A stretch of DNA of 45,074 bases. Origin: Myxococcales bacterium (GTDB lineage: Bacteria; Myxococcota; UBA727; GCA-2721815). Location: NCBI GenBank assembly GCA_002721815.1, contig PBLQ01000039.1, positions 1 through 45,074 on the forward strand. The letters are read 5' to 3'. The notes under the pieces are model-generated. The model saw only the letters and a program-made list of their open reading frames with translations. It was not told the origin of the DNA and searched no databases. Positions 14,176 to 41,117 of this stretch are shown here, one piece after another. How positions within the stretch are numbered: the first letter of the stretch is position 1; every line of letters starts with the position of its first letter. A program made the translations under genes and the position numbers.

Positions 14176-15444
14176 ATGACCCGTATCGGTCTTTTCAAAA
14201 TCCTGTGCCTCTCTTCGGTTTTAACCGTTGCCTCGATTCTATCCAGCTGTGTTGGGCCTGGTATTGCCGCCCAGGCTGACGTCGTGCGGGTGGACATCGC
14301 CAAAGCCAAAAAATCTGGTGCCTACGAATGCGCCCCCGTTGAACTGGCCAAAGCTGAGGCCCACGTTGACTTCGCAGAAGCCGAATTGGCCGAAGGCGAT
14401 TTCATTCGCGCCAAAGAGCATATAGATATCGCTATTGAAGAAAAGATTAAGGCGCTCGACAATTCCAAAGGCTGCGCACCCAAAAAGATTCTGATCAAAA
14501 AGAACATCGACAGTGACGGTGACGGCATTCCAGACAAGTCTGACGCATGTCCCGACAACCCTGAAGATAAAGATCAGTTCGAAGACCAGGATGGGTGCCC
14601 GGATCCAGATAACGATCAAGATACGGTCTTAGATCCCATGGACGAATGTCCCAACCAAGCTGGGCCTGCAGACAACCTGGGTTGTCCCTACGGTGACCGA
14701 GATGGCGACGGCATTAACGATCAACAGGACAAGTGCCCTGATAAAGCCGAAGACTTTGATGAAGACAGGGACCAAGACGGCTGTCCGGATGTGGACACCG
14801 ACAAAGACGGCCTCGAAGACGATGTGGACGAGTGCCCCACGCAGCCTGAAGACATCGACGGCTTTGTGGACGAGGATGGCTGCCCAGATATCGACAACGA
14901 TCAAGATGGTATCATTGATACAGTGGACCAATGCCCCGTGGAAGCCGGTCTGCCCCAAGCCACTGGCTGTCCGGATATGGACGGCGACTTTGTCGCAGAT
15001 AAAGATGATAAGTGTCCCGAAGAGTTTGGTGTACGCCAACCAGATAATCCAGATAAAAATGGTTGTCCCAAGGAGTACAAGCTCATCGTCATCAAAAAGG
15101 ACCGCATCGAAATCAAACAACAAGTGCACTTTGAAACAGCCAAAGCCACCATTAAGCGTTCTTCTTACCCGCTCTTGGCAGAAGTGGCAGACGCCATTAA
15201 ATCCGCCGAGATCAAAGGCGTGCGCATTGAGGGACACACCGATAGCGATGGCTCTGAAGTATACAACTTGAAGTTGTCACAAGCGCGTGCAGATTCGGTT
15301 CGTACGCACCTCATCGAGGTGGAGGGGATTCAAGCCGATATGTTGGAGGCCATTGGGTTTGGCGAGAGCAGACCACTGGCCGGAAATGATACGCCAGGGG
15401 GCAAAGCCAAAAACCGACGGGTTGAATTCCACATCGAACGTTAA
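14176..15444 (+). CDS. OmpA family lipoprotein with thrombospondin type 3 calcium-binding repeats
   Basis: 422 aa. A lipobox (ILSSC, Cys25) marks a lipoprotein. Residues about 35-95 are a DUF4398-like helical hairpin. Residues about 110-290 hold several TSP type 3 repeats with the pattern DxDxDGxxDxxDxCP, which bind calcium and make a rigid spacer. Residues about 300-422 are an OmpA C-terminal peptidoglycan-binding domain, with HFETAKATI, the GHTDSDGSEVYNLKLSQARA loop, and NRRVEFHI at the end. It should tether the outer membrane to the sacculus. GGAG five bases upstream supports the start. It sits between the DUF4398 lipoprotein and the MMPL exporter, only 3 bp from the latter, which indicates one operon. 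Confidence 0.92.
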   Translation: MTRIGLFKILCLSSVLTVASILSSCVGPGIAAQADVVRVDIAKAKKSGAYECAPVELAKAEAHVDFAEAELAEGDFIRAKEHIDIAIEEKIKALDNSKGCAPKKILIKKNIDSDGDGIPDKSDACPDNPEDKDQFEDQDGCPDPDNDQDTVLDPMDECPNQAGPADNLGCPYGDRDGDGINDQQDKCPDKAEDFDEDRDQDGCPDVDTDKDGLEDDVDECPTQPEDIDGFVDEDGCPDIDNDQDGIIDTVDQCPVEAGLPQATGCPDMDGDFVADKDDKCPEEFGVRQPDNPDKNGCPKEYKLIVIKKDRIEIKQQVHFETAKATIKRSSYPLLAEVADAIKSAEIKGVRIEGHTDSDGSEVYNLKLSQARADSVRTHLIEVEGIQADMLEAIGFGESRPLAGNDTPGGKAKNRRVEFHIER

Positions 15445-15447
15445 AGC

Positions 15448-17805
15448 ATGAACCACCCCTCATCAGAACCCCAACAGCAACCCGCCGCTTGGGCGAAAGC
15501 CTTCACCCGCTTTCGGTGGTTGAATCTGGGTATTTTGACAGCACTCACTTTTGTGCTTGGCTTCATCGCCTTGGGCATTCAATTTAATTTTTCGCCCGAC
15601 AACCTGTTCTTATCCAAAGACCCGGCCCTGGCCTTTTACGTGGATAAATTGATTCCCAATTTTGGGGCCGGCGGCAATTTCTCTATCCTGTGCATTGAAG
15701 GCGATGTTCGAAAAGAGAATGTTCAGAGTGCACTGGTTGAAGCCCATGAACGCTTAGAAAAACAAACCGGTGTTCAACATGTGCTGTCGCTAAAAAACGC
15801 ACAAATTTTTTCTGATGCAGGGGGATTTTTAGAAACCACCACACTTTTTGATGGCCGCAAGGTAAAAGATTCTCGCTTATGGAAAGCCGTTTTTGAGAGC
15901 CCAATTTACACCGGGAACATTGTCTCCAAATCTGGCCAGGCGGCAGCAGTAATTTTCCAATTAGCGTCCACCGACGGAAATCAAGCAAAAAAAGATGAAT
16001 TAATTGATGGCGTTCAAGATGTGGCCAATACCCTCACTCAAAAATATCCCGAAATTAAATTTTATGTGTCAGGGGCGCCCATTACCCAAAAAGAGATCGT
16101 GCACGTTCTCAAAAAAGATCAAATGACTTTCGTGCCTTTCACCATGTTCTTCATGGGGCTGCTGTTATTTTTGGTCTTTCGAGATTTTCGTGGCGTCTTC
16201 CTTCCCTTTTTGGCCACCGGCATGGCCACTGTCTGGACCATGGGCATCCTGGTGCTCCTGGGACACAACATCAACATCGTCAACAATGCTATAATTATTT
16301 TGCTTTTGGTCATCGGTGTGGCCGACGGGGTTCACGTGGTGGCCCGCTACAAAGAAGAGCTCAAGCGTGCCGAGAAAAATGGCCGACGCCCCACCAACGA
16401 ACAAGAAAAACACCTGCTGGTGGCACAAGTGGTCCAACACATGTTGCTCCCATGCTTTTTAACCACCACCACCACCGCCGTGGGCTTTCTTTCTACCTTG
16501 GTGGCCGAAGTCACGCTTATCCAAGATTTTGGACTTGAAGCGGCCATCGGTGTGATGGCTGCCTTCGTGGCGACCATTTTATTTGTCCCCAGCATGCTTG
16601 CCATTTTACCACTGCCCGGACCGGCTCACGAAGACGCCATTTCCAAGGGTCTCGACCGCAGTCTTTCATTAGCGGCCCGCTTTTCGGTGACCCATGCCAA
16701 GCTCATTGGCTTGGGCGCCTTGGCCCTCACCGGGGGTTTATCGTGGTTGGCCACCCAAGTTGAAACCAATATTCGTTTTGCCGACGAGCTGCCTGCCACA
16801 GCGCCAAGCATGCAAGCCCTGCGTTTCACCGAAAAACATTTCACCGGTGCGCTTCCTTTTGACGTGGTGTTTGAAGGCCCCCGTGATTTGATCGAAAGCC
16901 CGGAGTCTTTGCGCGCCCAAAGCCGCGTGAGCGAATACATTCGTGGTTCAGGATTACCATTTTCCGCTTTTTCCTACGCGGATGTGTATGAAGAGATGGG
17001 CCGCATTTTTTCTGCCGACGGCAAGGCCGAAAAAGTACGCCACTGGACCGATGAAAAAATTGCCCAAGTGAGCCTGCTCATGGACATGGGCGATGCTGAG
17101 CAAATAGAAGAAGGCCGAAAACGGTTTTATTCTCAAGACGGTTCTTTGGTCCGCATCACCGCGTTGGGCGCGGACATTGGTTCGAAAAACTTTTCGCCCT
17201 TTCGCGATAAGCTCATCGACTTTGTTCATGAAAACACCCCAAAAGGTCTCAAGGGTGTGGTGACGGGGGGCCAAGTCATTGCATCTCGCGCCATGGAAAA
17301 CATCATCAATGACATGGGCAGCTCTTTGGGTTTGGCCGCCATTCTCATTGCCATTTTTACCATGATCATGTTTCGCTCATTCAGACTCACGCTGGTGGCC
17401 CTCTTTCCCAATCTCTTGCCCATCATCGTGTCTCTGGCTTTCATGTCGTCCTTTGGTTTTCCCGTCCGGGTCTCCACCGTTGTCATTTTCTGCATGGCAT
17501 TGGGCGTGGCTGTGGACGCTTGTATCCACCTTTTGGCCCGGCTTAAAGAAGAGATGAATCAAGACCATGGCGACAAAGAGGTCAATATGGACGATGTTCT
17601 GTACCGCACCATCACCGGCACGGGGCGACCCATCGTTTACACCACGTTGCTATTATTTTTGGGTTTTTCCGTGATGGGCTTTTCGGACTTTCGATCCCTG
17701 CGTAACTTCGCCATTTTGTCGTCCATCACTCTAGGTACAGCATTGGTGGTGGACATCGCGTTGTTTCCCGCCATGGTTCGCATGTTGGGCATCAAAAAGC
17801 GTTAG
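15448..17805 (+). CDS. MMPL/RND superfamily exporter
   Basis: 785 aa. It has the duplicated RND layout: one membrane helix (about 27-48), a large periplasmic domain, five helices (about 225-395), then a second helix, periplasmic domain and five-helix bundle (about 415-780). GVADGVHVVARYKEEL and ALGVAVDACIHLLARLKEE are the matching helix-4 motifs of the two halves, with the acidic residues that relay protons. This is the hydrophobe-exporting MMPL/HpnN-like branch rather than AcrB, and the substrate is unknown (lipids are typical). The ATG is 3 bp after the OmpA stop, so translation is probably coupled. Its stop overlaps the stop of the convergent tonB. Association with two outer-membrane lipoproteins suggests envelope lipid traffic, but that is inference. 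Confidence 0.88.
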   Translation: MNHPSSEPQQQPAAWAKAFTRFRWLNLGILTALTFVLGFIALGIQFNFSPDNLFLSKDPALAFYVDKLIPNFGAGGNFSILCIEGDVRKENVQSALVEAHERLEKQTGVQHVLSLKNAQIFSDAGGFLETTTLFDGRKVKDSRLWKAVFESPIYTGNIVSKSGQAAAVIFQLASTDGNQAKKDELIDGVQDVANTLTQKYPEIKFYVSGAPITQKEIVHVLKKDQMTFVPFTMFFMGLLLFLVFRDFRGVFLPFLATGMATVWTMGILVLLGHNINIVNNAIIILLLVIGVADGVHVVARYKEELKRAEKNGRRPTNEQEKHLLVAQVVQHMLLPCFLTTTTTAVGFLSTLVAEVTLIQDFGLEAAIGVMAAFVATILFVPSMLAILPLPGPAHEDAISKGLDRSLSLAARFSVTHAKLIGLGALALTGGLSWLATQVETNIRFADELPATAPSMQALRFTEKHFTGALPFDVVFEGPRDLIESPESLRAQSRVSEYIRGSGLPFSAFSYADVYEEMGRIFSADGKAEKVRHWTDEKIAQVSLLMDMGDAEQIEEGRKRFYSQDGSLVRITALGADIGSKNFSPFRDKLIDFVHENTPKGLKGVVTGGQVIASRAMENIINDMGSSLGLAAILIAIFTMIMFRSFRLTLVALFPNLLPIIVSLAFMSSFGFPVRVSTVVIFCMALGVAVDACIHLLARLKEEMNQDHGDKEVNMDDVLYRTITGTGRPIVYTTLLLFLGFSVMGFSDFRSLRNFAILSSITLGTALVVDIALFPAMVRMLGIKKR

Positions 17806-28169: not shown

Positions 28170-31100
28170 TTAGAGCTGTGACACGTTCTTCGTGTTCAAT
28201 TCGTCGCCGGTGTTGCCCGCGCTCACCCCACACCGGTAGCCATGCGCACCGCCGGGGCCTAAATCATAATCCACTGAACCCGTTACAACGCCGTTCCCGG
28301 CACCCCAAACGCCTACACTGGGACCACCGCCGCCACTACCGCCACAACCACCGTCGCCGCCTTGGCCGCCATCGCCACCATCACCACCAGAGCCCATAGA
28401 GTAACCCGCGCCGACTTGTTTGATGGAGCCTGGACCGCCTCTGCCGCCCATGCCGCCAATACCTCCAAAGCCACTTTGGCCACCAATACCACCGCCCAAG
28501 GTTTCGATGATGACATCTTCAAAATTCAATGTGGAATCTTTAATAATGATACCAATGGAAGCACCGCCGCCTTGACCGCCTTTACCACCCTGACCACCAG
28601 TGCCGCCACCGCCGCCGCCGCCACCCGCACGACCGGGATCGCCGGTGTAACTGCCGCCGTAGAGGCAAAGGTCACCTGCACCGCCGCCGCCGCCGCCGCC
28701 GCCAGCACCCATTTCCCCAGCCTCGCCCAAGCCACCTACATCAGCTGCCCAGTTTAGGCCCGTTAACATACCCAGACCGTCTCCATCTGAACCGTTGGCA
28801 CCCGTGGCCGCAACACACGGCGTGTTGGCACCACCCGAGGTCAAATAAGCATTGCCTCCAACGAGCCCATCACCCGGCACCAGTGAGCCTCGATACGCAC
28901 AATTTGAGTAGTCAATGCCATATTGATAACCGCCAAGCCCCGAAACCGGCAATCCGTAAGCGTCGAAAACGTGCTTACCGAAAAAGCCACCTCGGCCACC
29001 TCGGCACGTACCCAACGGTGAGTCGGCACCTTTGGTGCCAGAAAACCCGGAATATTCATAGTCATCATAATAGTAGGCGTTCATCCCCCCGGAGCCACCA
29101 TCCCCCGCGTCACCGCCGCCGAAAGAACCGCCATCACCACCTGTATCATTACTGGCCGGGCTGCCAGGGGAACCAACCATTCCCGCAAAACCAGAGACTC
29201 CGGACGCACCAGGCCCACCAAAGCCAGCGATCACATGAACATCTCTCAAAGTGAGATAATCACCCGCGTTGCTAACGATGAGCGCAGCGCGATAGCTTCC
29301 AAAAGTGGTGGCATTATCGGTTTCGATCGCCACACTTGCCACGGTCAAAGGCGCAGACAAGTTCGCGATTTCCATGGCCGTGGTTTGCTCTGAAGACGAG
29401 ATCACGGTTTTCTGGAAAGACTGTCCCGCAAAATCGTATGTAAAACTGCCATAAACGTTTTGGCCGTCTTCTAAAGTGATGGTCTCATTTACAGGATAGA
29501 TGCCGGACGTCATGTAAATGCTGTCTTTGTTACTATCACCATCGACCAACTGCTGTGCCCGCTCAAAAGTCCGTACAGGATTAAGGGGCGACCCATTTCC
29601 AGTATCGTTTCCATCCACGCTCACAAAAACACCTCTGACAATATCGCCATCTACACCGTCACAATTTTCGTCAATGCCGGCGCTGTCTGGAATATCCGTG
29701 TCAGACACAACGGTGCACTCGTATTCGCACCCGTTGGCCAGTTCTCCATCCAGGTTTTGCCAGCCTGCCAAACAACCATCGAACACGCAGCCGCCACCCG
29801 CACTGCAAATGGTATTGGCATTCTCATGAAAACAAGTATCGCCCTGTGAGGGTATCGGCTCACACTCGCAGCCATCCTGAGGGTCTTCATTCAAATCTCT
29901 GCGACCGTCTTCACAATCGGTGCCCACGCCGGAAAGGGTGATCACGCTTTGCGCTTCGGTCCCTTCCACGGCATAATCGTAATCAATAAAGACCGTGCCC
30001 GAATCAGCATTCAGCTCATCGGGCGTATAGGTCACTTCAAAGTTATAGGTCTCGTTGTGGGCCAAAGTTACCGGCAAGGTGCCGGCGTTCAGGGTAAAAT
30101 CTAAAGAACTTCCCATGCCCATTTGTAAATCGCGAATGACCAAATCGCCATAACCCGTGTTTTGAATGTATAAGGATTCAAACCCATCACTCGAGGACAC
30201 AGTGCTTTGTCGGTAGACAGGGCCGAAGTTGTAGGTGTCCAGGCTCTGGAGAAATTCCGGATTGCTGGGGCGTGCGGTGAAACTCACTTCGAACTGACTC
30301 GCGTCAGGATCGGAAGTGAGTACGCGAAACGTTTTTGTCACGGACAACAATTGACCGCCGGCCAGGTAAACCATGGTGGGGGTGAAAGTCATGGCGTAGC
30401 GTTGGCTGGCCACAGAGCCGATGTCCGACACTGGGCCCACAGGCGCAATGGTGAAACCCGAAAGTGACTCGATGTTGGGAAGGCAGGCCCCCGTGATATC
30501 ATCTACGAAACAAGAGTTGAGAATGTCTAAATTACCCAGTCCTTCATTGCGGACCCTAAAAGCATAAAACTTAGTCAAACCCGATGGCACATCGCCCAGA
30601 TCGATGGCCGCCACACCTTCATTATTGGGCAGTTCGGTGAGGTCGTCTTGGGTCAATACCGCTGCGGGGGCCAACTGCGTCAATCCCTGAAGCTCAAAAT
30701 GAGGGTGCTCATCGTCGGGGAAGCTGGAAAGAACGTCTAACTCGAGAACCAAATCAGCGCTTTGCTCAGTGGTGGCCACCATGCCCGTGGCCGGCTCGAA
30801 ACTGAGGGTCAGGGTCTTTGTTTCCCCCGGCTCCAACACACTGCCCTCCCAAGAAGAAGCGTTCTCCACCGTGAAGGAAGGTGCGTAAATACCGTCGCGT
30901 GCCAAGGAACTCACGGGCAAAGCCACTTCACCATTGTTGAGGATGCTCCAACTGAGTGTTTTGCTGCTCCCCACGTAAATGATGTCCTCATCGGTTTGAG
31001 AAAATGTCAATGCCTCCACATAGTCGTTGGAAGATGCCAAAGAGGCCGCCACGGTTCCATAGCTGCCGCGGCCCACGAGCTCGATGTTCCATTCTTGAGA

Positions 31101-33212
31101 CCCACCCATGTCTTCGAGCGGATGTATTTTGAGCGTTTGCTGAACCGACCCCTCGGTGATGGGACTGAAGGTGAGGACAATGGTTCGCGACTCACCGTGT
31201 GCCATGGGCACGTCGAAGTCATCGGGCAATTCGTAAGAAAAGGGTGAATTGGGCGGGAGCACCAGTTGGCTGATTTGCAGCGGACCGTAGCCGGTATTGG
31301 TGATCGTCAAATTTTGAGTGGTCGGGTCGGTGGTATAAATTAATGTTGGCGGAAACTCAGACACCTCGCTCAAAGTGGCCAAAGGATTCACGGTTCGTGA
31401 GCGCAAGTGTAATGACAGGTTCGGTTGTACGGGATCGTTGCTTGAGATGATGAGCGTTCCGTTATCATTTTGCAAATCGCCGTCGTCCCCAATGTTCAGA
31501 GACGTGCCGTCGTAAAAGATGGGAATCACGGCGAACTCAGAAACGGTGACCCCTGCGTCGCTGGCCTCTTCCTCCTGATCCTCCTGAAAGGGTTCGTTGT
31601 CTTGCTCATCGGATTGGTGCAGGGCCAACGGTAAAGGCGGCATGCCCCCTACCGTAAAGCGGCTCGAGGAGCCCTCTCCCATAAAAATGTTATCGAGGCG
31701 CAAAGTGCCTTCACCCGTGTTGAAAGCCACAATGTCTGAATGAATGGCTTCGCCCAAGGATACGGTGGGCATCACCAAGGGAAATTCTAAATCGATTTCG
31801 TTCAGAATGTTGTCTTCCACCAGATAAAGTTTCAATCCCGGAGGTAATGTCATGTCTGCACGAATTTGAACTTGGACCTCGTCTTCATCGGTGGTGTGCC
31901 CAATGAGTTGGTCTTCCAGGGTGCCCAAGGCCCCTTCTCCCAGAAAAGTCACCGCCACTTCAAGCTGGTCACCAGGCTCGAACTCATGGGGTAACTCTAT
32001 TTCTGGAATCGCCCACGATGCCCCCTCTGCGAGCGCCAAAGTGTCGAGGGTCAAAGCCGCCTCTCCGGTGTTTTCAAAGATAACCGTGCTGGCTTGCTCA
32101 TAACCTAAGTAGGCATCTTCAAAAACCAAGAGCGCCGGTGTCGCGGTCAAGCGGCCTCGTAAGCCTTTGCCGGTTAACGTGATGTCATGAATGATATCTT
32201 CATCATTATTGCCAAAGCCAATAACACTCAAAACGCCATTGGCGTTGCCCTCGATGACCGGCGTGAAGAAAACCTCAACGGTGTAAGTGGAAGCCGCCAT
32301 GCCTTCATCGTTAAAGCAAACTTCTTCATCGCACACAGGGAATGCGCTGGGACAATCATCGTCATCGGTACAGTTTTCAATGAAGGAAGATAAATATTCT
32401 GGATCTTGTAGGTCGGCCGGTAAAACTTCGAAGCCAACCGTGGCCGGCGTCACGGTGAAGTCGCTTAGAGCAATCACCGAATCCAAAGCGCCCACGTTAC
32501 GGACGTACAGTTTTTGCGACAACACACTGCCAATAGGCACCTCTCCGATAGCCATTTCGGTGATGATTTCGGTGTCGACGCCATGGTGAGGGTCATCGCT
32601 GATCCAAAGCGTGGGGATGCCTTTGAACTCCGCTTGCAGTTCGATTTGAGAGATCCCGTTTTCACCGGTATGAACCACTTGCAGCATGCTAAAATCTGAT
32701 GTGGCATCTTTGGGGGTGTGTTCAATGGTGAGCTGTAAAACTTCGCCAGGTTCTAAAACGCGGTTCATGTTGCCGCCAGGACTCACATCAAATTCATTTT
32801 GGGGGTCGTTATTGATGACGATGTGCACGAGAGTAAGGGGCAGATTGCCCACGTTCTCCAGCTCGAGTGTTCGCTCAACACTCACCCCCAAACGTTGGGC
32901 TCCAAATTCAATGGTGCCCGTTTCAGACATTTCAAGTTGGGCCAACAGCACGCTGGCATCTTCGCCCGGTGTGTAGCTCAGCATCGTGCCTGCATCGGTC
33001 ACCGTAATGATTGTATCGTTTAAACAAACCCCACTGCTGCAAATCTGGCCGGTCTCACAATCTGAATCAAAAAGACAAGCGCTTTGGGTGGGGGTGTTGT
33101 CATCTTCGCCCGTGTTAACCGGTGCAGGGATCTCGTTACTACAGGCCGAAAGCAGCATCACGAAGCAGGCCATGATGACAGCGAGGTTCGGCAATAATTT
33201 ACATTTGTCCAT
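28170..33212 (-). CDS. Giant lipoprotein with choice-of-anchor-D-like repeats and Gly-rich beta-helix-like C terminus
   Basis: 1680 aa. The lipobox LLSAC (Cys24) predicts a lipid anchor, so it is probably a surface protein. Residues 45-66 have CxxDxDCxxGxxCxxGxC. Residues about 75-1090 contain around eight beta-sandwich repeats of the choice-of-anchor-D type, recognisable by xNTGxGxLxI or ENVGNLPLT at each strand start. Residues about 1099-1186 are a Cys-rich segment with DCEDGRR, GCLAGWQNLDGELANGCEY and IDENCDGVDGD, as in MopE-like proteins. From about 1187 a DUF1565-like parallel beta-helix begins (VSVDGNDTGNGSPLNPVRTF). Its loops become Gly-rich blocks (about 1327-1374 and 1487-1640), with GGxGG runs. 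A large architecture like this suggests a surface adhesin or structural shell, but the function is not known. Confidence 0.85.
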   Translation of the reverse strand: MDKCKLLPNLAVIMACFVMLLSACSNEIPAPVNTGEDDNTPTQSACLFDSDCETGQICSSGVCLNDTIITVTDAGTMLSYTPGEDASVLLAQLEMSETGTIEFGAQRLGVSVERTLELENVGNLPLTLVHIVINNDPQNEFDVSPGGNMNRVLEPGEVLQLTIEHTPKDATSDFSMLQVVHTGENGISQIELQAEFKGIPTLWISDDPHHGVDTEIITEMAIGEVPIGSVLSQKLYVRNVGALDSVIALSDFTVTPATVGFEVLPADLQDPEYLSSFIENCTDDDDCPSAFPVCDEEVCFNDEGMAASTYTVEVFFTPVIEGNANGVLSVIGFGNNDEDIIHDITLTGKGLRGRLTATPALLVFEDAYLGYEQASTVIFENTGEAALTLDTLALAEGASWAIPEIELPHEFEPGDQLEVAVTFLGEGALGTLEDQLIGHTTDEDEVQVQIRADMTLPPGLKLYLVEDNILNEIDLEFPLVMPTVSLGEAIHSDIVAFNTGEGTLRLDNIFMGEGSSSRFTVGGMPPLPLALHQSDEQDNEPFQEDQEEEASDAGVTVSEFAVIPIFYDGTSLNIGDDGDLQNDNGTLIISSNDPVQPNLSLHLRSRTVNPLATLSEVSEFPPTLIYTTDPTTQNLTITNTGYGPLQISQLVLPPNSPFSYELPDDFDVPMAHGESRTIVLTFSPITEGSVQQTLKIHPLEDMGGSQEWNIELVGRGSYGTVAASLASSNDYVEALTFSQTDEDIIYVGSSKTLSWSILNNGEVALPVSSLARDGIYAPSFTVENASSWEGSVLEPGETKTLTLSFEPATGMVATTEQSADLVLELDVLSSFPDDEHPHFELQGLTQLAPAAVLTQDDLTELPNNEGVAAIDLGDVPSGLTKFYAFRVRNEGLGNLDILNSCFVDDITGACLPNIESLSGFTIAPVGPVSDIGSVASQRYAMTFTPTMVYLAGGQLLSVTKTFRVLTSDPDASQFEVSFTARPSNPEFLQSLDTYNFGPVYRQSTVSSSDGFESLYIQNTGYGDLVIRDLQMGMGSSLDFTLNAGTLPVTLAHNETYNFEVTYTPDELNADSGTVFIDYDYAVEGTEAQSVITLSGVGTDCEDGRRDLNEDPQDGCECEPIPSQGDTCFHENANTICSAGGGCVFDGCLAGWQNLDGELANGCEYECTVVSDTDIPDSAGIDENCDGVDGDIVRGVFVSVDGNDTGNGSPLNPVRTFERAQQLVDGDSNKDSIYMTSGIYPVNETITLEDGQNVYGSFTYDFAGQSFQKTVISSSEQTTAMEIANLSAPLTVASVAIETDNATTFGSYRAALIVSNAGDYLTLRDVHVIAGFGGPGASGVSGFAGMVGSPGSPASNDTGGDGGSFGGGDAGDGGSGGMNAYYYDDYEYSGFSGTKGADSPLGTCRGGRGGFFGKHVFDAYGLPVSGLGGYQYGIDYSNCAYRGSLVPGDGLVGGNAYLTSGGANTPCVAATGANGSDGDGLGMLTGLNWAADVGGLGEAGEMGAGGGGGGGGAGDLCLYGGSYTGDPGRAGGGGGGGGTGGQGGKGGQGGGASIGIIIKDSTLNFEDVIIETLGGGIGGQSGFGGIGGMGGRGGPGSIKQVGAGYSMGSGGDGGDGGQGGDGGCGGSGGGGPSVGVWGAGNGVVTGSVDYDLGPGGAHGYRCGVSAGNTGDELNTKNVSQL

Positions 33213-33327: not shown

Positions 33328-34500
33328 CTACTCCCAGGTCACCGTTCCAGAGCTCGCCCAAAGGGCCGATGGGCTCGCCGCGGGGCCCGCCGGCGCATTA
33401 TCAGTGAAAGAGCCGATGGTGGCCCCAATTACCGCGCCTAAAATACCACCGGTCACGCCACCCAACAGGCCCGCATTTTCAATGGCCTGATTTTCCTGTG
33501 CAGCGTTGTCCAAGTTGAGTTGATCCAACTGACTGTAAATCACCAAGACCCCAGTGGCACCACCGATAAGTGCCCCTGCCAGTCCGCCAATAAAGACTCC
33601 GGCAAAGCATCTCGGACCGCACTTTGGACCGCACGAACAACAACACGTGTTGCACGATCCACCACCGCGACCACTGCCTGCACCGGGCGGCGTTGTGGGA
33701 CCATCATCACGCTCTACCTCTTCCCGGTCATCTGGGTATTCTGGAGGCGGGTTTCGAGGCGAACTTTCCTCTTGAGGCACCTCAACAGATTCTTCGGCGT
33801 CCGTACCACTTGAGGGGGGTGGCAATTTTTTCTTCGGAATCTCTTCGGCATCGTTGGTGTCATCCGCATTGGGCGCGCGGGGTGTATCGATGGACACGTT
33901 CGGTGATTTGTCTTTGAGTCCTGGCCCCTGTGCAGCACCGTCATTCCCCTTGGAAGGGGGTGGCTTGGTGGGCATGGGCTTATTCGGCCCATCCGTCGGT
34001 GGGTTCTGAGGCAACGGCTTTCTCGGTGGTGGTGCGGGCTCGGTCGTTGGCGGAGCCTTAGGCGTGGGTTTCGTTTTCGGCGGCTTTTTAGGCGCAGGTT
34101 TTTTAGGCGCGGGTTTTTTAGGCGTGGGCTTTTTAGGCGCGGGCTTCGTTTTCGGCGGTATCTTATTGCCTTCTTTTTTGGGTTTGTTTTTGCCTGAATC
34201 GCGCACATGATCCGATTCATGACCAGGTTGGTTGGGTGACTTGGACCCTGCTTTCGGAGACGGTTTTTTTCGATCACCCAGGTTGCCGGGGGTGTCTTTG
34301 ATCTTTTTCTTCCCCTTCAAAAGGGTGGGCGATTTTTTCTTCTTGGAAGGCTTTTTCTTCTGTGCATCGCCTTTGTCTTTGGCGGTCACGGGCGCTTTTT
34401 TGGGGGGTATTTTGTTGGCTGCGAATGTCTGTTGCGCAGTCAACATGCCACCCAACAACATCATGCTCATGACCCAATTCTTAAGAAGATTTTTTCTCAT
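33328..34500 (-). CDS. Exported Lys/Pro-rich protein with Cys cluster and glycine-zipper helices
   Basis: 390 aa. I do not recognise a family. A signal peptide (about 1-28, ending TFAA) is followed by a Lys-rich then Lys/Pro-repeat stretch (about 30-180, KPAPKKP repeats), an acidic/Pro-rich middle (about 195-275) and a cluster of seven cysteines at 283, 286, 287, 288, 290, 294 and 298. Two glycine-zipper segments come after it, about 300-322 (FIGGLAGALIGGATGVLVIY) and about 340-365 (GLLGGVTGGILGAVIGATIG). The layout is like a TonB-type Pro/Lys rod attached to a membrane-inserting or oligomerising end. AAGGAGA lies upstream of the chosen ATG, preferred over an ATG 8 codons earlier. It is followed on the same strand by the giant lipoprotein gene. 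Confidence 0.75.
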   Translation of the reverse strand: MRKNLLKNWVMSMMLLGGMLTAQQTFAANKIPPKKAPVTAKDKGDAQKKKPSKKKKSPTLLKGKKKIKDTPGNLGDRKKPSPKAGSKSPNQPGHESDHVRDSGKNKPKKEGNKIPPKTKPAPKKPTPKKPAPKKPAPKKPPKTKPTPKAPPTTEPAPPPRKPLPQNPPTDGPNKPMPTKPPPSKGNDGAAQGPGLKDKSPNVSIDTPRAPNADDTNDAEEIPKKKLPPPSSGTDAEESVEVPQEESSPRNPPPEYPDDREEVERDDGPTTPPGAGSGRGGGSCNTCCCSCGPKCGPRCFAGVFIGGLAGALIGGATGVLVIYSQLDQLNLDNAAQENQAIENAGLLGGVTGGILGAVIGATIGSFTDNAPAGPAASPSALWASSGTVTWE

Positions 34501-34595
34501 TCGATTCTCCTTGGGACAACCCATCCAAAGCGTCCCATCCCAAAAACCGCTTCAACCGAGAAACGGTCGGCCGCTCTCCAACTGAACTGCCTGGT

Positions 34596-34663: not shown

Positions 34664-34694
34664 CACAAAAAAAGGGCCCCTAAAGGCCCTTTTT
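34664..34694 (-). terminator. Terminator of the membrane pyrophosphatase gene
   Basis: AAAGGGCC (34671-34678) pairs perfectly with GGCCCTTT (34685-34692), loop CCTAAA, extended by A-T pairs on both sides. On the minus strand a run of Ts follows (34664-34673). It lies about 20 bp beyond the hppA stop. Confidence 0.85.
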
Positions 34695-34714: not shown

Positions 34715-36880
34715 TTAGCCGAAGATGTTGAAGCCATATTTTGCGATCATGGGTGCGATCACCAAAGCCACCACACTCATCAACTTGATGAGAATGTTCA
34801 AAGAGGGACCTGCGGTATCTTTGAAGGGGTCGCCCACCGTATCACCGGTGACGGCTGCTTTGTGCTTTTCGGAACCCTTGCCAGTATTGGCTTCGTGATC
34901 TTTGGGCTCTTCTTCGATTTGCTTTTTGGAGTTGTCCCAAGCCCCACCGGAGTTGGACATGAAGATGGCCAGCAACACACCAGTCGCGGTGGTACCTGCC
35001 AAAAGACCGCCCAACATCAAACCGGAGCTATCAGCAAAACCTGCAGCCACTGGAACCAAAACAGCCAACAAACCTGGCTTCACCATTTCACGAATGGCGG
35101 CTGCGGTGGAAATGTCCACGCATTTGCCGTATTCGGCTTTCGCAGTGCCTTCCATCAAACCAGCGATGTCACGGAACTGACGACGCACTTCCAAAATCAT
35201 ATCATTCGCAGCGCGTGAAACAGCGTCCATGGCCATGGAGGAAAACAAGAAAGGCAACATGGCACCGATGAACAAGCCCACCATCACGCGGGGTTCGGTC
35301 ACGTCGATCTTAATGTCTGCCACCGATTGGTATAGAGAGGAATTCTCAGCCAAAGAGGTTTGGAATGCAGAGAACAGAGAAATAGCGGTCAACGCTGCAG
35401 AGCCAATGGCAAAACCTTTACCGATGGCAGCAGTGGTATTGCCCACGGCATCCAAGCTGTCGGTGCGCTCACGAACTTGAGGCTCCAACTCAGCCATTTC
35501 TGCAATCCCGCCAGCGTTATCAGCGATGGGGCCAAAAGCATCCACAGCCAACTGTACACCGGTGGTGGCCAACATCCCAAAGGCCGCCACGGCGATGCCG
35601 TACAAACCGGAGAAGTGGTAAGCCACCATGATGGCGATACAAATCAGAATGATAGGGTAAGCGGTAGAACGCATGCCCACTGCAATCCCGGAAATGATGT
35701 TGGTGGCAGGACCCGTGTTGGATGCCTCAACGATTTCATTCACAGGGCCTTTGTTTTTGGCGCAGTAGTGCTCCGTCACAAAACCGATGGCGATACCTGC
35801 AACCAAGCCGCCCACCATGGCCGCAAACAAACCCATTTTGTGGTATTCCATGTTGCTGCCGGGCAATCGGAAGTATTCAGGTAACAACTGATGAATCACA
35901 CCAGCAGAAGCCAATGCCATCAAAGCACCTGCGATCCAAGTGCCCATGTCCAAAGCGTGCTGTGCATTGCCGCCCTCTTCAACCTTAACGAAGAAGGTGC
36001 CAACGATGGAGGAAATGATACCCACCGCAGCAAGAATCAAAGGCAAGTACACGAATGCCATGGTGCCTTGACCAGAGCTGAGCGTGACGCCCGCACCGAT
36101 GACCATGGTCGAAATAATGGCGCCCACATAAGACTCAAAAAGGTCAGCGCCCATACCGGCCACATCGCCCACGTTGTCACCCACATTGTCGGCGATCACC
36201 GCAGGGTTACGTGGGTCATCTTCAGGGATGCCCGCTTCAACTTTACCCACCAAGTCAGCGCCAACATCGGCTGCTTTGGTGTAAATGCCGCCACCCACAC
36301 GCGCAAACAACGCGATGGAGGATGCACCCAAAGAGAATGCGGACAAAATGGTGAGCACATCGTTGATTTGGCTATCGCCTTTGAGACCTGGCATCATGCC
36401 GTAAGCCACAAACAAACCGCCCAAACCAGTGACGCCCAAGCCCACAACGCTCATGCCCATCACAGTACCGCCAGCAAAAGCCACATCGAGGGCTTTCGCC
36501 AAACCTTCACGGGCAGCCGCAGTGGTTCGAACGTTGGCGGCAGTGGCCACACGCATACCGAAGAAACCGGCCAAGCCAGAACAGATGGCACCCACAATAA
36601 AGGAAAGGGCCTGCAAGGCTAAAATGGACTTGCTGCCCATGGCGCCTGAAGCCCCCAACAAAACGGCAACGGCCACAACAAAGATAGAAAGAACTTTGTA
36701 TTCACGGCTCAAAAAAGCCATCGCGCCTTCGCGAATGTCGCCGGCGATTTCCTTCATTCTATCGTTTCCGGCGTCTGCGCCGTTTACTTTCTTGCTCTTC
36801 AAAAAAGCGAATCCCAAAGCCAACAAACCGACCAAAGGACTGGCATATGCGAGTGTTTGCATCATTTCTAAATGCTCCAT
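34715..36880 (-). CDS. hppA: Membrane-bound pyrophosphatase, K+-dependent type
   Basis: 721 aa, about 16 membrane helices. It hydrolyses cytoplasmic pyrophosphate and pumps H+ or Na+ out of the cytoplasm. The substrate site is [20 protein letters not shown] (206-225) and [18 protein letters not shown] (231-248), with the gating Glu249 directly after it. The potassium determinant reads [10 protein letters not shown] (480-489). Ala484 and Gly487 stand where K+-independent enzymes carry Lys and Thr, so this is the K+-dependent class. Glu249 in FESYVG is the position seen in Na+-pumping and some H+-pumping members, so ion choice stays open. Start at the ATG with AGAAGAA upstream. It is a single gene with its own terminator. 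Confidence 0.95.
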
Positions 36881-37779: not shown

Positions 37780-39198
37780 TTAAAGCTTCACGTACTCGTA
37801 ATCGATTTCTTGATCGTTAATCCCGCGTCGAGGTGGCGCGATCCATCCCGCCATTTTGCCCGGCTCGGTCACTTGAACCATCAAACTTCTCACAAAAGCT
37901 TTATCTTCAGCGGTGGGTAACCAATCATTCTTATTCTTTTGCCACTGGGCTTCGGTGATCATGTTGCCCTCAGGGTCGAAACGCGCCTCGCTCCACAGAC
38001 CCACATCGCGGTTAAAACGACGGGACGGAAGCTTCACGCGGTAATCCACGCCCGCTTTTTCTAAATCGCGATTCCATTGTTTGACACCCTTGTTACAGTC
38101 GTCAACATAATCGTCCCGCAGCACTTCGTTCATGGCGTTTCGCAAGGGCACCTCTTCACTAGAAACTTTTCCACCGTCCAGAACATCCATTTGATAAATG
38201 CATTCTTTGGCCACATGATCAACGTTGAGTTTCGCTTCGTGGGCACGACCCTTAACGCCCGTTGCAAAGTAGCCAGCCGCATTCGTGGACTTTTCAGCGC
38301 CGAACAAGTTCAAAGCACTGGAGTACCAGAAATTGATGTATCTTTCGAGTAACTTCAACGGGATGCCGCCGTGAGGGCCGATGTCATCGGTGTCATGTTC
38401 CTTCATGAGTTGACATGATCGTTGAATCACGCGACGAATTCCAGTTTGCCCCACAAACATGTGGTGCGCTTCCTCGGTCAGCATAAAACGACAGGTGCGA
38501 GACAGCGGATCGAAACCACTCTCTGCCAAAGACAACAACTGGTATTTACCATCACGATCGGTAAACATGGCAAACAAAAAGAAGGACAACCATTCATCGA
38601 TGGGCTCGTTGAAAGTGTTCAAAATTCGAGGTTTGTCCTCGTTGCCTGAGCGACGGTCCAACAACTCTTCAGCCTCTTCACGGCCATCGCGCCCGAAATA
38701 GGAGTGGAGCAAATAGACCATGGCCCACAGGTGCCGGCCCTCTTCCACGTTCACTTGAAACAGATTGCGCATGTCGTAAAGAGAGGGACACGTTTGGCCG
38801 AGCAAACGTTGCTGCTCAACCGATGCAGGCTCGGTATCACCTTGGGTCACGATGAGGCGACGTAAAGCATTTCGGTGCTCACCAGGTACTTCTTGCCAAA
38901 CGGGTTTCCCGTAATCATCACCAAAGGGAATCACCCGGTCTTTTTCGGGTGGCGCCAGAAAGATGCCCCAACGATAGTCAGGCATTTTAACGTGATCAAA
39001 ATGCGCCCAGCCATCGGTTTCAACGCTGATGGCGGTTCGCAAATAAATGTCTTTTTCTTGAAAGCCTTCTGGCCCCATGTCCTGCCACCAACTGAGGTAG
39101 TTGGGCAGCCATTTTTCTAAAGCCCGCTGCAATCGTTTGTCATCACTCAGATGAACGTTGTTGGGAATCTTTTCATTGCTTACGTGAGCTACGGCCAT
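37780..39198 (-). CDS. boxB: Benzoyl-CoA 2,3-epoxidase subunit BoxB
   Basis: 472 aa diiron oxygenase subunit. It epoxidises the ring of benzoyl-CoA using O2, in partnership with the reductase BoxA. Both diiron half sites are visible: VEEGRHLWAM with Glu153/His156, and TEEAHHMFVG with Glu242 or 243 and His245 or 246. Other family stretches include QVNVEEGRHLWAMVYLLHSY, the DDIGPHGGIPL segment and FGAEKSTNAA. Length matches known BoxB (about 470). AAGGAG upstream supports the ATG. It follows boxC by 40 bp on the same strand, so it is probably the second gene of the operon. boxA, the benzoate-CoA ligase gene and the downstream aldehyde dehydrogenase are not in the window. Confidence 0.93.
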   Translation of the reverse strand: MAVAHVSNEKIPNNVHLSDDKRLQRALEKWLPNYLSWWQDMGPEGFQEKDIYLRTAISVETDGWAHFDHVKMPDYRWGIFLAPPEKDRVIPFGDDYGKPVWQEVPGEHRNALRRLIVTQGDTEPASVEQQRLLGQTCPSLYDMRNLFQVNVEEGRHLWAMVYLLHSYFGRDGREEAEELLDRRSGNEDKPRILNTFNEPIDEWLSFFLFAMFTDRDGKYQLLSLAESGFDPLSRTCRFMLTEEAHHMFVGQTGIRRVIQRSCQLMKEHDTDDIGPHGGIPLKLLERYINFWYSSALNLFGAEKSTNAAGYFATGVKGRAHEAKLNVDHVAKECIYQMDVLDGGKVSSEEVPLRNAMNEVLRDDYVDDCNKGVKQWNRDLEKAGVDYRVKLPSRRFNRDVGLWSEARFDPEGNMITEAQWQKNKNDWLPTAEDKAFVRSLMVQVTEPGKMAGWIAPPRRGINDQEIDYEYVKL

Positions 39199-39238
39199 GG
39201 GCGCTCCTTCTTATTCAGTGGAAATGATATGAGCCACT

Positions 39239-40900
39239 CTAACATCTTCTAAAGTCAAATTCAGGTTGGGTGGGTTTTCCGTAGTTGGTCAAAGCACCCA
39301 TTTCTCCCGTGGCGTTCGGCCGAATGAAAATCCAGTTCTGCCAGGCTGATAAACGTGCGAAAATACGGCTTTCCATGGTTTCTGGGCCAGGAAAGCGCAA
39401 AGAGGCCTCCATGCCGGTGAGGGCATCAGGGGACATGGCCACCCGTTCTTCCACCAACAATCGCACTTCATCCGGATAATCGATCTCGTCCCGAACGAAG
39501 GTCACCAGCTCGAGATCTTCGGCATCTTCTGCCTCCACTGGGCCTTCCAGCCCAGCATTCATGGCCGTTTGCAACGCTTCATCATCCCCAAAATAATGGG
39601 CCTGCAAACGCGTCAAACCGTGGCTCATGGGCAATGACCCATTGTTGATTTCAGACAGACGAATTTGGGATGGGGTATCGGCGTCCACATCATCGAGCAT
39701 GTAACTGCGATCGGCAGCCCAAATCAGCTCGGCCAATGAGCCGGCCCAACAAGAGGTGGGCTCGATGAGTGACACGAAAGTGCGGCTGGTGACATCGACG
39801 CGTTTGAGAACGCGCTTCATGTTGTGCAGCACTTCAACCGCAAACCAGTTTGGGTTCTCGCCAGTGGCAGCCGCCAGCAAAGAACGGTCGGATTGCAACA
39901 CGTGCTCAACATTGCCTTCGGTTTTGAGTAAGACCAAGCCCACCATGAGGTGGTTCATGCGCAAGTTCAAAATGGCGTTGTCTAATTCACGAAATGCTTT
40001 GAGTGCCCACAGATTGTTGCCTTGAGCAAAGATCTCGTCGGCAGAAAATTCTTGGGCGGTATCGGGCGCACGGAGGGTCAGCTCAGCCACCCGTTTGTCT
40101 TCGTCGATTTTGACGGTGACGAACTCGTATTGATAGGTACCTTCTTCGAAAGTGGGCTCAACACTTTCCAGTTTGACGCCTTCACCACCCGGGCGATGAC
40201 TTTGGGCCGCCAAAGCTTGGGCCCGGTCGGCCACGGCGGCGTCCCATTTGCTTTTGGGTGCAATGGCGTCCACCAGCTTCCATTTGAGGGCGCGTTTGCC
40301 TTTGACGCCTTCGGCCACGGTGCAGAAAAAGTCGGCCAAATCGCGGCGCACTTTTCGTTTGTCCACCACGCGGGTAAGGCCACCGGTGCCAGGCAATACC
40401 GCCAAAAGCGGTACTTCGGGCAATGACACTGCGGAGTTGGCATCATCGATCAGCAGAATTTCGTCGGCGGCCAAGGCCAGCTCGTAGCCCCCACCGGCGC
40501 AAGTGCCATTGGCAGCGCACAGGAACTTGATGCCCGAATTTTCGGAGGCGTCTTCAATATAAAGCCGAGTTTCGTTGGTGAATTTACAGAAATTCACCTT
40601 AAAAGCGTGGCTGCTGGCCCCCAGCATGGGAATGTTGGCGCCCGCACAGAAAATGCGTTCTTTGCCACCGGTGATGACCACTGCTTTCACTTCGGGGTGC
40701 TCAAATCGGAGCCGCTGAATGCAATCGGCCAGCTCGATGTCCACGCCTAAGTCGTAACTATTTAATTTTAAACGACTATCCTCATTAAGGCCGGCGTCTT
40801 CTTGGACGTCCATGGCCAAAGTGGCGATCTCGCCATCGAGGCTAAAACGCCAATGGCGGTAGTTTTCTGGCGACGTGGAAAAACTGATGTGATCACTCAT
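39239..40900 (-). CDS. boxC: Benzoyl-CoA-dihydrodiol lyase / 2,3-epoxybenzoyl-CoA dihydrolase BoxC
   Basis: 553 aa from the chosen ATG, matching the known BoxC length (about 550-560). It opens the epoxide ring of 2,3-epoxybenzoyl-CoA hydrolytically, releasing formate and the open-chain semialdehyde-CoA. The crotonase-like N-terminal part shows VKAVVITGGKERIFCAGANI (oxyanion hole) and AANGTCAGGGYELALAADEI. A C-terminal crotonase-like half follows. The start MSDHISFS has GGGAGG four bases upstream. The frame stays open for a further 67 codons upstream, but those residues look unlike protein and have no ribosome site. First gene of a boxC-boxB operon with a promoter just upstream, divergent from rplM-rpsI. 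Confidence 0.92.
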   Translation of the reverse strand: MSDHISFSTSPENYRHWRFSLDGEIATLAMDVQEDAGLNEDSRLKLNSYDLGVDIELADCIQRLRFEHPEVKAVVITGGKERIFCAGANIPMLGASSHAFKVNFCKFTNETRLYIEDASENSGIKFLCAANGTCAGGGYELALAADEILLIDDANSAVSLPEVPLLAVLPGTGGLTRVVDKRKVRRDLADFFCTVAEGVKGKRALKWKLVDAIAPKSKWDAAVADRAQALAAQSHRPGGEGVKLESVEPTFEEGTYQYEFVTVKIDEDKRVAELTLRAPDTAQEFSADEIFAQGNNLWALKAFRELDNAILNLRMNHLMVGLVLLKTEGNVEHVLQSDRSLLAAATGENPNWFAVEVLHNMKRVLKRVDVTSRTFVSLIEPTSCWAGSLAELIWAADRSYMLDDVDADTPSQIRLSEINNGSLPMSHGLTRLQAHYFGDDEALQTAMNAGLEGPVEAEDAEDLELVTFVRDEIDYPDEVRLLVEERVAMSPDALTGMEASLRFPGPETMESRIFARLSAWQNWIFIRPNATGEMGALTNYGKPTQPEFDFRRC

Positions 40901-40925
40901 GTGGCCTCCCATTTTGGCTGCCCGC

Positions 40926-40953
40926 ATCTTAGTGATTTTGGCCATCTTTTCAA
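40926..40953 (-). promoter_or_regulatory. Candidate boxC-boxB promoter
   Basis: On the minus strand TTGAAA (40948-40953) and TAAGAT (40926-40931) are spaced by 16 bp. A transcript start would fall near 40919, giving a leader of about 20 nt that still includes the GGGAGG ribosome site of boxC. Confidence 0.5.
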
Positions 40954-40989
40954 GGGCACAAACGCCTTTTCGGGGCCAAATCGTCCCTA

Positions 40990-41007
40990 TTGACACCTCG
41001 GGGTCAA
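40990..41007. promoter_or_regulatory. 18-bp near-perfect palindrome between boxC and rplM
   Basis: TTGACACCTCGGGGTCAA reads TTGACxCC...GGxGTCAA. Seven of nine base pairs are symmetric, with TTGAC/GTCAA arms intact. It lies about 40 bp upstream of the boxC -35 element on the minus strand. It could be an activator or repressor site for the box genes. No BoxR-like regulator gene is in the window. Confidence 0.4.
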
Positions 41008-41033
41008 AAGGGCAGCTTTCTCTCGATTTTGAG

Positions 41034-41048
41034 GTGATCACCGTGATC
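41034..41048. promoter_or_regulatory. Overlapping palindromes, GGTGATCACC and GATCAC-C-GTGATC
   Basis: A perfect 10-bp and a perfect 13-bp inverted repeat overlap here, 27 bp beyond the previous palindrome on the rplM side. They may be regulatory sites for rplM or for the box promoter. No assignment is possible by eye. Confidence 0.3.
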
Positions 41049-41100
41049 GCTTCCGAACAAAACCTGTGGGTGTGATTTTGAAAAAAGCCGCACCTCCGCA

Positions 41101-41117
41101 TACGCCGCGATGGCGTA
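41101..41117 (+). promoter_or_regulatory. Hairpin in the rplM leader
   Basis: TACGCC-GCGAT-GGCGTA is a perfect 6-bp stem with a 5-nt loop, about 44 bp upstream of the rplM ATG. It may belong to an autoregulatory L13/S9 leader, but I cannot match it to a known motif. Confidence 0.3.

Follow-up and report, generated by a model that had tools for sequence, protein, structure and literature searches.

This locus raises the question of whether the unlike segments of an exported protein belong together, and what they might build in the cell envelope. We analysed the whole stretch of 45,074 nucleotides from a Myxococcales bacterium (the window), in which a 390-aa protein is encoded on the minus strand at 33,328..34,500, stop codon included, a reading supported by the open reading frame call and by likely homologues in four other genomes. 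The frame starts with the ATG at 34,500 and ends with the stop codon at 33,328-33,330. A likely ribosome-binding site, AAGGAG (34,507..34,512, minus strand), was read from the sequence six bases upstream of this ATG, whereas the alternative in-frame ATG at 34,524 has no comparably clear site. GC content at codon positions 1 and 3 (0.57 and 0.56) was similar to that in nine further window genes, while position 2 was higher (0.54 vs 0.37-0.46 in the nine), as the many Pro and Gly codons would lead one to expect. The Cys codons are a mixture of TGC and TGT, indicating that the Cys cluster is not a simple repeat. Judged from its sequence, the gene encodes a real, uncharacterised and lineage-restricted exported protein, a variant of the two-helix glycine-zipper envelope proteins.

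Inspection of the protein revealed a signal peptide at residues 1-27 (34,420..34,500) with a putative signal peptidase I site, the predicted cut falling between TFA and ANK, and no lipobox. By composition, it is followed by a Lys/Pro-rich rod at residues 29-204 (33,889..34,416; net charge +36; 45 K and 43 P in 176 residues) and an acidic Pro-rich stretch at residues 205-270 (33,691..33,888; net charge -13). The Cys cluster CNTCCCSCGPKCGPRC occupies residues 283-298 (33,607..33,654), and two predicted Gly-zipper helices lie at about residues 299-322 (33,535..33,606; hydropathy maximum 2.02) and 343-365 (33,406..33,474; hydropathy maximum 1.72), all on the minus strand. The seven Cys (283, 286, 287, 288, 290, 294 and 298; pattern CxxCCCxCxxxCxxxC) are the only ones in the protein, and none of 2,000,000 random placements in 390 residues confined seven Cys to a stretch of 16. 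GxxxG runs set small residues at each fourth position in both helices, which themselves come from low-confidence models only: two different lead sequences each gave two long helices (H23-60 and H68-99; H26-58 and H70-108), with mean pLDDT 60.0 and 56.9 and pTM 0.30 and 0.29. The signal peptide, Lys/Pro repeats, acidic segment, Cys pattern and two zippers listed by the initial annotation were thus all confirmed in the sequence, in the order it gave. The full-length protein matched no Pfam or NCBIfam family and no PDB sequence (best E 0.19), Foldseek with the first predicted model returned no similar solved structure (best E 5.3), and searches of the plasmid, viral-contig and genome-contig collections gave no result.

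Homologues were sought in 16 genomes, which constitute both the class and the order of the window genome. The window C-terminus as query gave no convincing homologue: E ≤0.1 was reached in 5 of the 16 genomes, its own included, and among the four genes of the sister family f5 only that of G013 was found (E 0.0499), behind six other places. The G013 C-terminus as query reached E ≤0.01 in 5 of the 16 genomes, namely the window's own (E 4.2e-4) and all four of f5 (G012-G015), and a five-row profile followed to E 1 matched strongly once per genome in these five, all remaining matches having E values of 0.009 or above. All five encode the same order of segments: a signal peptide (by inspection), a charged/Pro tail, a Gly run, a CC cluster and two zippers, an agreement that is partly circular because the family was defined from these five proteins. 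These results bear out the earlier view of an exported protein whose segments belong together, since every f5 homologue keeps the segment order, the Cys cluster and the zippers, G012 doing so with only CC and one further Cys.

The f5 homologues are 258-287 aa long, occur as one gene per genome and have, by inspection, signal peptidase I-like sites and no lipobox; G013 carries C8 inside its signal peptide. Their C-terminal parts are 52-62% identical to that of G015, and across the five aligned proteins the GxxxG glycines and two Cys are among the invariant columns. Instead of seven Cys, the f5 proteins show CCCC, CCCC, CCGGCC and, in G012, a CC before helix 1 with a third Cys nine residues on. 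Instead of a Lys/Pro tail, three are Asp-rich and G013 is Pro/Arg-rich, and the stretch from residue 29 to CC (139-170 residues) has a net charge of +3, -2, -9 and -7, compared with +24 for residues 29-282 of the window protein. As aligned, the constant elements are the signal peptide, the long charged/Pro tail, the Gly run, 2-7 Cys including CC and the zipper hairpin, and the variable ones are Cys number and tail chemistry. Gene neighbours differ as well, the f5 gene following an apparent glycine-cleavage P-protein gene in three genomes and an apparent diadenylate-cyclase-like gene in G012 (both named from sequence). A GCGACA- and TAAAT-like pair lies close upstream in G013, G014 and G015, with the TAAAT part only in G012, which suggests that the f5 genes have a promoter of their own; no such pair was visible at the window gene. 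A GTCGGAG element also precedes three f5 homologues (L017, L018 and L019), together with the GCGACA ... TAAAT pair.

From the observed order of segments and its recurrence we infer export, membrane insertion, oligomerisation and disulfides, and we tentatively read the protein, at somewhat short of an even chance, as an oligomerising membrane hairpin with a periplasmic spacer and a periplasmic Cys collar held by inter-subunit disulfides. The protein would be exported by Sec and its signal peptide cleaved, after which the two C-terminal Gly-zipper helices would insert as a membrane hairpin, with their glycine faces packed against neighbouring copies. The Cys cluster would then sit at the edge of helix 1, and, with the N-terminal side exported, it should face the periplasm, where disulfides between subunits, or less likely metal, could stabilise the oligomer, while the disordered charged tail of about 255 residues would extend into the periplasm and serve as a spacer or brush. 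All 6 genomes tested, including G011, which has no zipper gene, encode a VKOR-family disulfide-forming protein, making an oxidising envelope plausible.

The variation among the homologues refines this reading. A Cys count that varies is easier to reconcile with disulfide stapling than with a fixed metal site, and the nearly neutral f5 tails make a Lys-specific role unlikely, so that the tail probably acts as a disordered spacer and not through lysine. Of the earlier proposals, a specific role for the Lys/Pro rod is therefore weakened, and the metal or disulfide lock at the Cys cluster loses support in its fixed-metal form. The membrane zippers gain plausibility as a hairpin from hydropathy and the two low-confidence models. 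Recurrence in two families yields a testable prediction, namely that disulfides staple a glycine-zipper oligomer. A further elaboration, in which the Cys collar locks and unlocks a zipper ring with the periplasmic redox state and the charge-changing tails form a brush, making the protein a redox-controlled envelope scaffold, is a long shot. A charged disordered spacer, a Cys collar and a membrane glycine zipper are each familiar, but we know of no protein that combines them. Titles and abstract openings in the open-licence literature likewise yielded no glycine-zipper protein with a Cys cluster, a Pro-rich tail or disulfides. TonB-type periplasmic rods share the KPxPKKP-like composition; the window protein differs from them in its C-terminal hydrophobic helices, and no TonB domain was found in it.

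With its seven Cys so closely spaced, the protein might instead be a periplasmic metal-binding protein that holds copper or zinc at the membrane, its tail and helices serving as spacer and anchor, possibly after modification by an MNIO (DUF692) enzyme. MNIO enzymes modify exported Cys-rich RiPP precursors, and the MNIO gene adjoins that of the precursor. The MNIO family PF05114 was present in 6 of 6 genomes tested, but in the five that bear the zipper gene its matches lay on other contigs, some of them short, and no such adjacency was found; PF05114 also occurred in G011, which has no zipper gene. Cys number and spacing moreover differ between all but two of the homologues, and the open-licence literature related to bufferins yielded nothing. 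We regard a metal-binding role as unlikely.

The disulfide-stapled hairpin would have to reside in one of the two membranes, and hydropathy leans toward the inner one. The best 19-residue Kyte-Doolittle windows of the zipper helices scored 1.7-2.3, compared with 0.9-1.5 for E. coli SlyB, OsmB and YmgG and with inner-membrane controls of 1.9-2.5 for hppA and MMPL (eight best windows each) and 1.1, 1.75 and 2.7 for YdhI (three), the windows compared being the best of each protein. This bears on the proposal that the protein is a SlyB-like outer-membrane guard, its hairpins assembling under envelope stress into rings that surround outer-membrane proteins. The complexes formed by SlyB are ring-shaped and may encapsulate proteins of the outer membrane (PMC13067283; also PMC13082787), and by analogy the window protein may work in a related way. 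It shares with the two-helix glycine-zipper envelope proteins (PF05433, PF13441, PF13436; SlyB, OsmB, YmgG) the export to the envelope and the GxxxG-repeat helices, with a weak similarity to Pfam Gly-zipper_YMGG (E 4e-4, below the cut-off), and Lys and Arg are almost absent from the inter-helix loop of the five aligned proteins, so a cytoplasmic loop is not favoured. However, the helices are more hydrophobic than those of SlyB, OsmB and YmgG and nearer to inner-membrane helices, and the Cys cluster and long disordered N-terminal tail set the protein further apart. The window protein and its four homologues also lack a lipobox, the former having no Cys before residue 283. The window protein stayed below the Pfam cut-offs of PF13441, PF05433, PF13436 and PF13488, with no match at full length and 20.4 bits (PF13441; cut-off 28.9) and 14.6 bits (PF05433; cut-off 24.2) for its C-terminal part alone, and the four f5 homologues matched none of the Pfam glycine-zipper families. 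An outer-membrane guard of this kind is improbable on balance.

The comparison between the window protein and the f5 proteins presupposes common descent, which we consider probable. A profile built from the four f5 proteins, with the window protein excluded, found the latter among 195 genomes of the phylum at E 1e-7 over profile positions 9-104, E values being per single genome. Among the candidates scored, this profile returned at E ≤1e-5 only the four f5 proteins, the window protein and one lipoprotein of another layout from G045 (E 4.9e-9, hairpin positions 38-104 only), and the lipoprotein scored higher (38.6 vs 34.3 bits), so a match to the hairpin by itself does not separate homologues from other proteins. 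After composition correction, the window protein scored 33.5 bits against the full profile, 29.5 from the Cys on and 20.9 for the hairpin only, the lipoprotein scored 38.1 in each version, and a TonB-type protein scored 22.7, 24.4 and 25.0. The uncorrected scores for the same three versions were 58.2, 58.2 and 47.2 for the window protein, 44.6, 47.2 and 48.8 for the lipoprotein, and 30.6, 33.7 and 35.6 for the TonB-type protein. Homology is favoured because the window match extends over the Gly/Cys part as well and the segment order is shared; the scores of the lipoprotein and the TonB-type protein, together with shuffle controls, mean that descent is not proved by sequence alone.

Those controls bear directly on the possibility that the zipper and Cys motifs are products of neutral drift in the low-complexity sequence of an exported disordered protein, the two families being alike by composition only. 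Of 500 shuffles of the window C-terminus that kept the G/P/C positions and the residue class, 30, 12 and 47 reached the window score (three profile versions, corrected), and the weak forward search from the window C-terminus and the freely diverging tail composition agree with drift. Without the composition correction, however, only 9, 0 and 0 of 500 class-preserving shuffles reached the score, and full and hydrophobic-pattern shuffles did so in 0 of 500 each. The shared order, the single strong match per genome, the CC cluster in all four f5 proteins with their similar C-terminal parts, and the mixed codons within the Cys runs also speak against drift, which we consider a poor explanation.

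Beyond the order, the five-row profile at E ≤0.001 matched 60 of the 195 phylum genomes, comprising the 5 members and 55 others; for many large genomes, the best 23 or 24 first-look candidates were scored in these profile searches. Among the 55 outside matches, 25 (L026-L050) were read in frame and none had a CC. Of these, 23 (L027, L028 and L030-L050) have GGVxGGV runs and resemble, by eye, TonB-type energy transducers, L029 was by eye an H+-pyrophosphatase, and L026 (G045:C368) was a Gly-zipper lipoprotein of another layout. L004, a match of the first query, is laid out differently, L064 is a separate zipper protein, and the weak PHROGs matches that fell in the Gly-rich part (best E 3.5e-4, including a tape-measure family) were judged compositional. 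The TonB-type proteins recur across many genomes of a single large-genome family of the phylum, and their GGVEGGV-like runs separate the Pro-rich rod from the C-terminal domain (by eye, at the 23 loci). The lipoprotein-like L026 protein (186 aa) also combines Cys with a zipper hairpin, the motif HSCGPQC lying in the loop that joins its two Gly-zipper helices. At L064 (G000:C60), a Gly-zipper segment occurs in a 359-aa protein whose neighbour is a TPR-like protein of 157 aa, and the pair resembles, by eye only, a type III translocator and its chaperone.

In the window, the zipper gene lies between two genes on its own strand. Upstream is hppA (H+-pyrophosphatase, 34,715-36,880), and a terminator-like hairpin with a T-run (34,669..34,694, minus strand, 11 pairs) stands after it, so transcription of the zipper gene from hppA is improbable; the region holds 3 terminator-like sites vs 3.3 in shuffles, and what speaks for this hairpin is its place. 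Downstream, after a gap of 115 nt in which no terminator-like site was found, is a giant lipoprotein of 1680 aa with choice-of-anchor-D domains (28,170..33,212, minus strand), which the initial annotation had tentatively joined to the zipper protein as one surface system on the strength of their position. The expected linkage was not seen: relatives of the lipoprotein, many probably alike by domain type only, lay on other contigs in 4 of 4 f5 genomes, short contigs leaving linkage a little room (10,575 bases in G013, ending about 490 bases after the gene, and 9,636 bases in G015). G011 has seven stretches matching the lipoprotein and no strong zipper match, and in the window genome further lipoprotein paralogues occur at other places, the zipper gene being the only one of its type. 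We therefore judge the lipoprotein a neighbour and not a partner, and a joint surface system very unlikely; adjacency to a striking neighbour is no evidence of partnership. A role as a cell-displayed antibacterial Gly-zipper protein, comparable to the Caulobacter CdzC and CdzD that can kill on contact, is more improbable still, because these bacteriocins (PMC5380434) have 86 and 84 aa and adjoining type I secretion genes and share only the zipper with the window protein, which has 390 aa, a Sec-type signal and hppA and a lipoprotein gene as neighbours.

Several further features of the window genome were recorded. The giant lipoprotein has a paralogue on C65 (43% identity over query residues 9-1537) and further partial matches on C45, C1 and C7. 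At 14,176-17,805, an MMPL transporter gene is immediately preceded on its strand by the gene of an OmpA protein that carries thrombospondin type 3 repeats. Two genes at 37,780-41,101, which matched Pfam PaaA_PaaC (weakly) and enoyl-CoA hydratase, are presumably BoxB- and BoxC-like genes of the benzoyl-CoA epoxidase pathway.
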